Part shown: piece by piece, positions 16,970-24,568 of the stretch | Numbering within the stretch: position 1 is the first letter of the stretch | Layout: every line of letters begins with the position of its first letter | From: an uncultured Bacteroidota bacterium | GTDB taxonomy: Bacteria > Bacteroidota > Bacteroidia > JABEUT01 | Length of the DNA: 44,909 bases | Assembly: GCA_903863935.1 (NCBI GenBank) | Contig: CAIPDV010000088.1 | Span: 1-44,909, forward strand | Direction of reading: 5' to 3' | Translations under genes and position numbers: made by a program | The notes under the pieces: model-generated | Told to the model about the DNA's origin: nothing | The model's database searches: none | Seen by the model: the letters and a program-made list of their open reading frames with translations, nothing else

Positions 16970-17041
16970 GTACAATTAGGAATGAGAAATTAGGAATCAG
17001 GAATTAATTTCAATACCATTTTCACCCATTTGCCCATCCTT

Positions 17042-17203
17042 TTCATTCATTAGCCCCGTCCTTCAGGTCGGGGAATAGAGTACGGCTCTTATTAATTCAG
17101 AGGGCTTTAGCCCTTGAATCAATTTGCATGTAAGGGCTAAAGCCCTCGAATGGGGAGGGCGTTTTACCTCTCCCCGCCCTAAAGGGCGGGGCTAATGAAT
17201 GAA
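17042..17203. repeat. Symmetric four-hairpin MITE/REP-like element
   Basis: A 162-bp nested inverted structure. The outer ends are perfect 12-bp inverted repeats (TTCATTCATTAG at 17042-17053 and its complement at 17192-17203). Inside each is a G+C-rich hairpin: 17054-17073 (imperfect, CCCCGtCCT/AGGtCGGGG) and 17172-17191 (perfect 9-bp stem CCCCGCCCT/AGGGCGGGG with an AA loop). Inside those are two small hairpins built on AGGGCT/AGCCCT at 17101-17114 and 17133-17146, complementary to each other. There is no transposase here; the form fits a non-autonomous element or a REP doublet of the kind mobilised by RAYT transposases (inference). Confidence 0.8.
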
Positions 17204-23671: not shown

Positions 23672-24568
23672 ATGAAGATTATTGAATGCCCACGCGATGC
23701 AATGCAGGGAATAGATGAATTTATTCCTACTGATATAAAAGTAAAGTACATCAATTCACTTCTGAAAGTAGGTTACGATACAATTGATGTGGGAAGTTTT
23801 GTTTCACCCAAAGCAATTCCGCAAATGAGGGATACAGCCGAGGTGTTAAAGAAAATAGACATGACCTGTAGGGCGACGACCCATGTGTCGTCCCAACATG
23901 ATGAGGGAACGACGACACGTAGGTCTTCTCTATTAGCCATCATTGCTAACCTGCGCGGAGCCCAGGATGCAGTACAGTTTGATGAGGTGAATTATTTAGG
24001 GTTCCCGTTTTCTATTTCTGAAACTTTTCAAAAAAGAAATGCAAATTCCACCATTGCGGAATCGCTCGTCCGCGTTGAAGAAATACAAAACTTATGCATT
24101 CAGCATAGAAAAGAGTTGGTAGTTTATTTATCAATGGCCTTCGGAAACCCATACGGAGATGAGTGGAGCAGCGATATTGCCATTCACTGGTCGCACAAGT
24201 TGCACGATATGGGAATTAAAATAATTGCTCTATCAGATACTATAGGAGTTTCAAACCCTGAAAATATAACTACACTATTTTCTGCACTCATACCTGAATT
24301 GAAAGATGTGGAATTTGGAGCACATTTACATACCACACCCGACAAATGGGAAGAAAAAGTTAATGCAGCATACAATAGCGGCTGCCGTCGCTTTGATGCC
24401 GCCATAAAGGGTTTTGGAGGTTGCCCCATGGCGAGTGATAAACTAACGGGTAACATGCCGACTGAAAACCTATTGAGCTATTTCAGAAACAAACAAATAC
24501 CGCTTTCGATAGACATGGATGCCTTTGCTCAATCGATGTTAATCGCTGGCGAAGTTTTTCCTCACTAA
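23672..24568 (+). CDS. Hydroxymethylglutaryl-CoA lyase with an in-frame palindromic insertion
   Basis: A 298-residue HMG-CoA lyase, cleaving HMG-CoA to acetyl-CoA and acetoacetate (leucine or ketone metabolism). Family marks: IECPRDAMQG near 3-12 with catalytic Arg and Asp, VGSFVSP near 43-49, HLHTT near 219-223 (metal ligands), and the signature SGCRRFDAAIKGFGGCPMA near 236-254 with the active-site Cys near 251. Residues 66-83, between KKIDM and LLAIIANLRGA, read CRATTHVSSQHDEGTTTR. I recall only about five or six residues in this interval in relatives. That extra DNA is palindromic and repeat-like (listed separately). The frame is intact, so the enzyme may still work. It follows pheS by nine bases. 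Confidence 0.9.
   Translation: MKIIECPRDAMQGIDEFIPTDIKVKYINSLLKVGYDTIDVGSFVSPKAIPQMRDTAEVLKKIDMTCRATTHVSSQHDEGTTTRRSSLLAIIANLRGAQDAVQFDEVNYLGFPFSISETFQKRNANSTIAESLVRVEEIQNLCIQHRKELVVYLSMAFGNPYGDEWSSDIAIHWSHKLHDMGIKIIALSDTIGVSNPENITTLFSALIPELKDVEFGAHLHTTPDKWEEKVNAAYNSGCRRFDAAIKGFGGCPMASDKLTGNMPTENLLSYFRNKQIPLSIDMDAFAQSMLIAGEVFPH
23863..23925. repeat. Palindromic repeat-like insert inside the HMG-CoA lyase gene
   Basis: The segment is bounded by GACCT (23863-23867) and AGGTC (23921-23925). It contains GACGAC/GTCGTC (23875-23880 with 23887-23892, 6-nt loop) and an alternative perfect pairing GTGTCGTC (23885-23892) with GACGACAC (23911-23918). The composition and symmetry differ from the surrounding gene and resemble small dispersed palindromes. 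Being in frame, it adds about 16 residues. Confidence 0.72.

Follow-up and report, generated by a model that had tools for sequence, protein, structure and literature searches.

REP-associated tyrosine transposases (RAYT, or TnpA_REP, of the HUH-Y1 family) bind GTAG-type REPs and cleave them as single strands, the cut usually falling at a CT next to the hairpin; in the case of TnpA_REP of E. coli and Stenotrophomonas, cleavage takes place at the CT adjoining the REP (PMC8266576). GTAG REPs lying in frame within genes were catalogued in 2013, O. terrae having the highest number, in the main text of Di Nocera et al. (2013; PMC3733652), where the repeats named for Bacteroidetes are of the CGTC type, with no GTAG type among them, and where RPE-4 and RPE-6 are equated with CGTC REPs. 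In the REPtrons of TnpA_REP (RAYT) subclass 2.4, known from Bacteroidetes and Cyanobacteria (Quentin et al., 2018; PMC6006769), in-frame REPs located within tnpA_REP, between the HUH and Tyr motifs, are a hallmark, and in-frame REPs within RAYT genes of Bacteroidetes have thus already been published (PMC6006769).

The REPs described here belong to the genome of an uncultured Bacteroidota bacterium (GCA_903863935.1, hereafter G000), a draft of 126 contigs. They share with the GTAG REPs, BIMEs and REPINs of the main text of PMC3733652 a GTAG foot, an 8-bp stem, head-to-head dimers and an association with tyrosine transposase genes, and, like them, they are found in intergenic DNA as well as in frame inside genes. 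They also resemble the subclass 2.4 REPs (PMC6006769) in being canonical long REPs with three G-C pairs at the base of the stem. Like the Rickettsia palindromic elements (RPE), they are palindromic repeats that propagate into genes of functional proteins while keeping the reading frame, whereas those elements carry a CGTC tag or are longer unrelated palindromes, have no link with a transposase and belong to another phylum.

An insertion in an HMG-CoA lyase-like gene

The window (the whole stretch analysed, 44,909 bp of contig CAIPDV010000088.1) encodes at 23672..24568 (+ strand) a protein of 298 aa (PF00682) that scores 62 bits against the Pfam HMGL-like model (cut-off 29) and whose best matches among solved structures are HMG-CoA lyases (up to E=1.6e-35). 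We call the gene lyase-like because its score against the NCBIfam hydroxymethylglutaryl-CoA lyase model, 190 bits, lies under the cut-off of 246. An earlier note on this DNA had pointed to about 16 extra residues in the protein, and the alignments (tblastn, MAFFT) confirm them: at 23867..23929 (+ strand), 63 bp take the place of 15 bp in the relatives (five codons, e.g., NTKSK), a net gain of 48 bp and 16 aa. Exactly these 16 residues, or 48 bp, are lacking in 29/29 relatives aligned by tblastn, including eight of the same genus with 78-85% identity.

The pN/pS of the gene against its eight same-genus orthologues is 0.11-0.17, which is not above the values among those relatives; outside the insert, the gene is under purifying selection. 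The HLH motif (residues 218-220) and the GGCPMA motif (249-254) of the catalytic region are intact and invariant. The insert-bearing gene is probably functional. In an AlphaFold model built from 30 sequences (mean pLDDT 88, pTM 0.88), residues 69-82 have a pLDDT below 50 and are flanked by a helix (55-61) and a strand (86-90), so that the insert is predicted to form a disordered loop linking helix to strand. In TIM barrels, helix-to-strand loops point away from the active site. The peptide ATTHVSSQHDEGTTTR is one example of a candidate for proteomics of the source organism.

The insert is a dimer of REP hairpins

The DNA of the insert consists of two GTAG-tagged REP hairpins arranged head to head, a dimer similar to a BIME or REPIN. 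The first hairpin, REP1 (23868..23894, + strand), is laid out as GTAG-GG(c)GACGAC-CCATGT-GTCGTCCC, with the foot GTAG at 23868-23871, the 5' arm GG(c)GACGAC at 23872-23880 (including a single bulged C at 23874), the loop CCATGT at 23881-23886 and the 3' arm GTCGTCCC at 23887-23894; it measures 26-27 nt and has an 8-bp stem with one bulged base. A spacer, delimited on the sequence at 23895..23904, separates it from REP2 (23905..23933, - strand), which is inverted and decayed. The arms of REP2 are GACGAC and GTCTTC and its loop is ACGTAG; its core is identical at 17/18 positions to a REP with an AC/GT stem, a match equalled by 0/2000 shuffles, and its outer stem has decayed. The REP2 foot, ATAG (CTAT on the plus strand), is one change away from GTAG and overlaps the CTA codon of the conserved Leu87. 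The element runs from the GTAG at 23868 to the CTA(T) at 23932/23933.

The palindromic DNA with a perfect hairpin pairing reported in the note is real, GTGTCGTC (23885-23892) being perfectly complementary to GACGACAC (23911-23918), and this pairing joins the two halves of the dimer. The GACCT (23863-23867) and AGGTC (23921-23925) that it had taken as borders are indeed complementary; this pairing is partly fortuitous because the left GACC is host gene sequence, and the element actually begins and ends some 5-8 bases further to the right. RNA folding of the palindromic stretch gave z = -2.6, with 0/200 shuffles equally stable, and DNA folding gave z = -1.8.

A covariance model (R1), built from 17 other copies with the lyase copy left out, recovered REP1 with 31.2 bits, the E-value being 5.9e-5 when the window is searched and 0.005 when the search covers the whole genome. 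The lyase copy has a stem pair type of its own, AC/GT, likewise compensated; this AC-type stem was not seen elsewhere in the genome, a point against the origin proposed below. An Rfam search of the whole window gave no family match. It could be proposed that a variable loop has simply changed in length in the ordinary way and that the palindrome arose by chance, as the site is a surface loop whose residues do vary among relatives. We dropped this extremely unlikely reading, which is refuted by the genome-wide E-value of an independent model, by the presence of two REP halves, the second with the shuffling result given above, by a loop length that is constant across the 29/29 relatives shown, and by sister copies in other genes. 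It is just as hard to credit that the assembly stitched a REP from elsewhere into the gene: the genome is a repeat-containing draft, yet the lyase copy is identical to no other (the best reaches 89% over 27 bases), it is far from either end of its contig (mid-way along 44.9 kb) and leaves the frame open, and the same pattern is seen in several genes, one of them common to an independent genome.

The window contains a second repeat, unrelated to the REPs. This 164 bp sequence (17040-17203) is intergenic, adjoins a RelA/SpoT-like gene, and has long inverted ends, TTCATTCATTAGCCCCG...CGGGGCTAATGAATGAA, around an inner palindrome of the GGGCTTTAGCCC type. The genome has about a dozen copies of it, some complete and some partial. 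Since one end copy (C45:15482) is located less than 200 bp from a Y1 transposase gene (C45:14954-15298), this repeat may represent a TIR/TIRYT-type family.

A family of REPs inserted in frame

The 17 sister copies have the consensus GTAGGGGnnGACCCRYGTGTCnnCCC. Pairing is conserved in 99.3% of the stem cells, with a covariation score of 0.371 against 0.103 after shuffling (0/500), and covariation is seen at both variable positions of the stem, where three pairs change on both sides (21 cells versus 5.8 in shuffled alignments, 0/500). A plain DNA search with the 63-mer yielded only weak sister matches because the stems vary, and patterns together with the covariance model were therefore needed to find the copies; the counts given here come from these two types of search. 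Across the whole genome the covariance model has 24 matches at E<=1, corresponding to about 10 loci. The further copies that the note had proposed to look for thus exist, both in genes and between them, and the lyase residues are not shared by close relatives, i.e., the reverse of the two observations that it had named as fatal to an insertion.

Six of the approximately 10 loci are located inside open genes, all six in frame. Besides the lyase-like gene (window 23868-23933), these genes, whose families were assigned by HMM, encode aspartate kinase (aspK, C40:7881), GMP synthase (guaA, C42:146491), BshC (bshC, C42:147627), leucyl-tRNA synthetase (leuS, C52:40653 and 40707, a head-to-head dimer) and a RAYT-type transposase (C80:5226-5972), the last with four REPs including a head-to-head dimer. 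The remaining REPs are intergenic or without a recognisable gene (C80:2376-2715, C104 and C69), and one pair lies just past the aspartate kinase stop (C40:7624-7695). This number of loci, with several intragenic insertions that are lineage-specific and have a known pre-insertion state, sets the family apart from the REPs presented in the main text of PMC3733652.

Read forward, the REP encodes a peptide VGxDPCVxP in BshC, LeuRS and RAYT, and in reverse a peptide GxTHGSxPT in aspartate kinase, LeuRS and RAYT; the lyase reads it in a third frame (CRATTHVSSQ). Since three reading frames are used, it is the DNA hairpin that spreads and not a single peptide. The commonest stems have a stop in only one of the six frames (the TAG of the foot), and TT-type stems have more. 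In bshC, the REP-containing unit has expanded in tandem in G000 (TPLVKQGVNP repeats, C42:147535-147652), forming a minisatellite born from a REP within a gene; another genome of the genus, G005, has a shorter version at the same site.

The note had compared the palindrome with the Rickettsia palindromic elements and had suggested a mobile protein-coding palindrome. In-frame mobility is upheld by the relatives without the insert and by the sister copies in the same genome, and the comparison holds for the spread in frame within genes; the element itself is a GTAG REP dimer and no RPE. One might still see in it a CGTC-tagged relative of the RPE without a dedicated transposase, given the similar in-frame insertion into unrelated genes and the letters CGTC within the stem GACGAC/GTCGTC. 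This is very improbable, since the feet of the sister copies are GTAG or one change from it, their stems are of the form GGGnnGAC, and a RAYT-type gene is associated with them, whereas the CGTC repeats are described in the main text of PMC3733652 as having no dedicated transposase. With the GTAG foot and the RAYT gene, we did not retain membership of the RPE or CGTC repeats. Nor does the element form a new class: the GTAG foot, the covarying hairpin of 20-40 bp, the dispersed copies and inverted dimers, and the transposase gene containing four of the same REPs identify a GTAG-tagged REP dimer of the RAYT-linked type.

The RAYT-type gene

The RAYT gene at C80:5226-5972 is intact. Its REPs are inserted between the HFH and Tyr motifs, the reading frame containing MPNHFHAI, next VGADTRVRP...GEHTGSPL and after it the Tyr region NYYEHII, an arrangement that corresponds to the hallmark of subclass 2.4. 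The protein matches the NCBIfam model REP_Tyr_transpos (NF047646) with E=7e-16 and 58 bits, below the cut-off of 80, and scores 21.2 bits against Pfam (cut-off 23), possibly because the REPs split the gene. Unlike what is described for subclass 2.4 REPtrons (PMC6006769), the genome that carries this RAYT gene also has in-frame REPs in five housekeeping genes.

RAYT-type genes with internal REPs were also found in G027, G051 and G071, which are distant genomes of the same class. In two of them (G071:C40:31656-32723 and G027:C135:4720-5631), long hypervariable in-frame tandem repeats, e.g., LGEPLSGDS, stand between the two internal REPs of the RAYT gene; the loop between these REPs seems to be an expansion hot spot.

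Distribution among relatives

The inserts of aspartate kinase, GMP synthase and LeuRS are absent from the same-genus orthologues, and altogether four of the five housekeeping inserts are missing in every relative examined. The exception is BshC, whose insert is common to G000 and G005, with a different length, and lacking in the other relatives. Within the genus, REPs are present only in G000 (20 matches at E<=0.05) and G005 (9 matches). Apart from bshC, their REP sites adjoin different genes in the two genomes, and the sites therefore turn over. At G005:C80:3925-3953, the REP foot GTAG appears to end a reading frame of 719 codons, as described for REPs elsewhere.

A pattern scan of GTDB detected the identical 26-mer in Chloroflexota, Planctomycetota, Patescibacteria, Campylobacterota and Firmicutes; some of these copies are intragenic and in frame, as in a folC-like gene of Sulfurovum and several RAYT genes. 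The Sulfurovum gene (MAG JAKIUE010000082.1, 1776-3002), which on reading its sequence resembles folC (folylpolyglutamate synthase), carries the same REP type twice in frame. In-frame insertion of REPs into a housekeeping gene appears to occur in another phylum as well.

Origin of the lyase insert

We propose, with a probability of roughly 0.88, that a REP dimer was copied or moved into the lyase-like gene in the lineage of G000, likely by a RAYT protein, and that it contributes a short disordered peptide without a required function. The mover would be a REP-associated tyrosine transposase acting on single-stranded DNA, presumably the RAYT of G000 or a lost relative of it, and the same process would have produced the in-frame REPs of aspartate kinase, GMP synthase, leucyl-tRNA synthetase and BshC. 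Three features would have allowed the insertion to persist: a net length divisible by three, a REP with stops in few frames and a site that is a surface loop from helix to beta strand, canonically away from the TIM-barrel active site; it would be selectively neutral.

The main rival to movement by RAYT is template switching at replication. REPs would then spread without a transposase, by template switching or recombination of hairpin DNA, with the RAYT gene as a passenger. About 15 bp of host sequence have given way to the dimer of 62-65 bp, so that either the insertion was not clean or the flanks changed later, and this loss is more in keeping with a templated patch than with a clean insertion. 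A CT stands immediately 5' of the GTAG foot in the lyase (23866-23867); it is not firm evidence of cleavage, as the other REP insertions of the genome have no such CT in common, which favours spread without transposase, as does G005, whose REPs are accompanied by no more than a weak match to RAYT. The lyase site shows no target duplication, and none is expected for this transposase family. Of the features of a MITE of a DDE transposon (terminal inverted repeats and target site duplication), the inverted dimer is present and no duplication is seen at a site that, with about 15 bp of host sequence replaced, is not clean. We nevertheless consider spread without transposase unlikely: REPs and a full REP-containing RAYT-type gene co-occur in G000, G027, G051 and G071, a foot conserved as GTAG together with a stem that covaries indicates that a protein recognises the REP, and RAYT-dependent cleavage of REPs is known experimentally (PMC8266576).

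Implications

What is new in the present case is the host and the number of well-bounded insertions in housekeeping genes. REPs are named as extragenic elements, yet most REP loci of G000 are intragenic, and all of those are in frame. Annotators should not take peptides encoded by REPs, e.g., VGADPCVRP and THGSAPT, for conserved protein features, and these peptides may lower family scores. A more ambitious and rather doubtful idea is that the REP/RAYT system of this lineage has adapted to coding sequence and is a regular source of new loops in housekeeping enzymes; if this were true, the few stops, the self-insertion into the RAYT gene and the high intragenic share would be the outcome of selection favouring spread that is compatible with coding. 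Genomes of the same genus reveal the pre-insertion state of four of the five housekeeping genes, which provides a ready natural set of loop insertions with which to gauge the tolerance of essential enzymes, and to ask whether RAYT inserts REPs freely into coding DNA and selection sorts the survivors.
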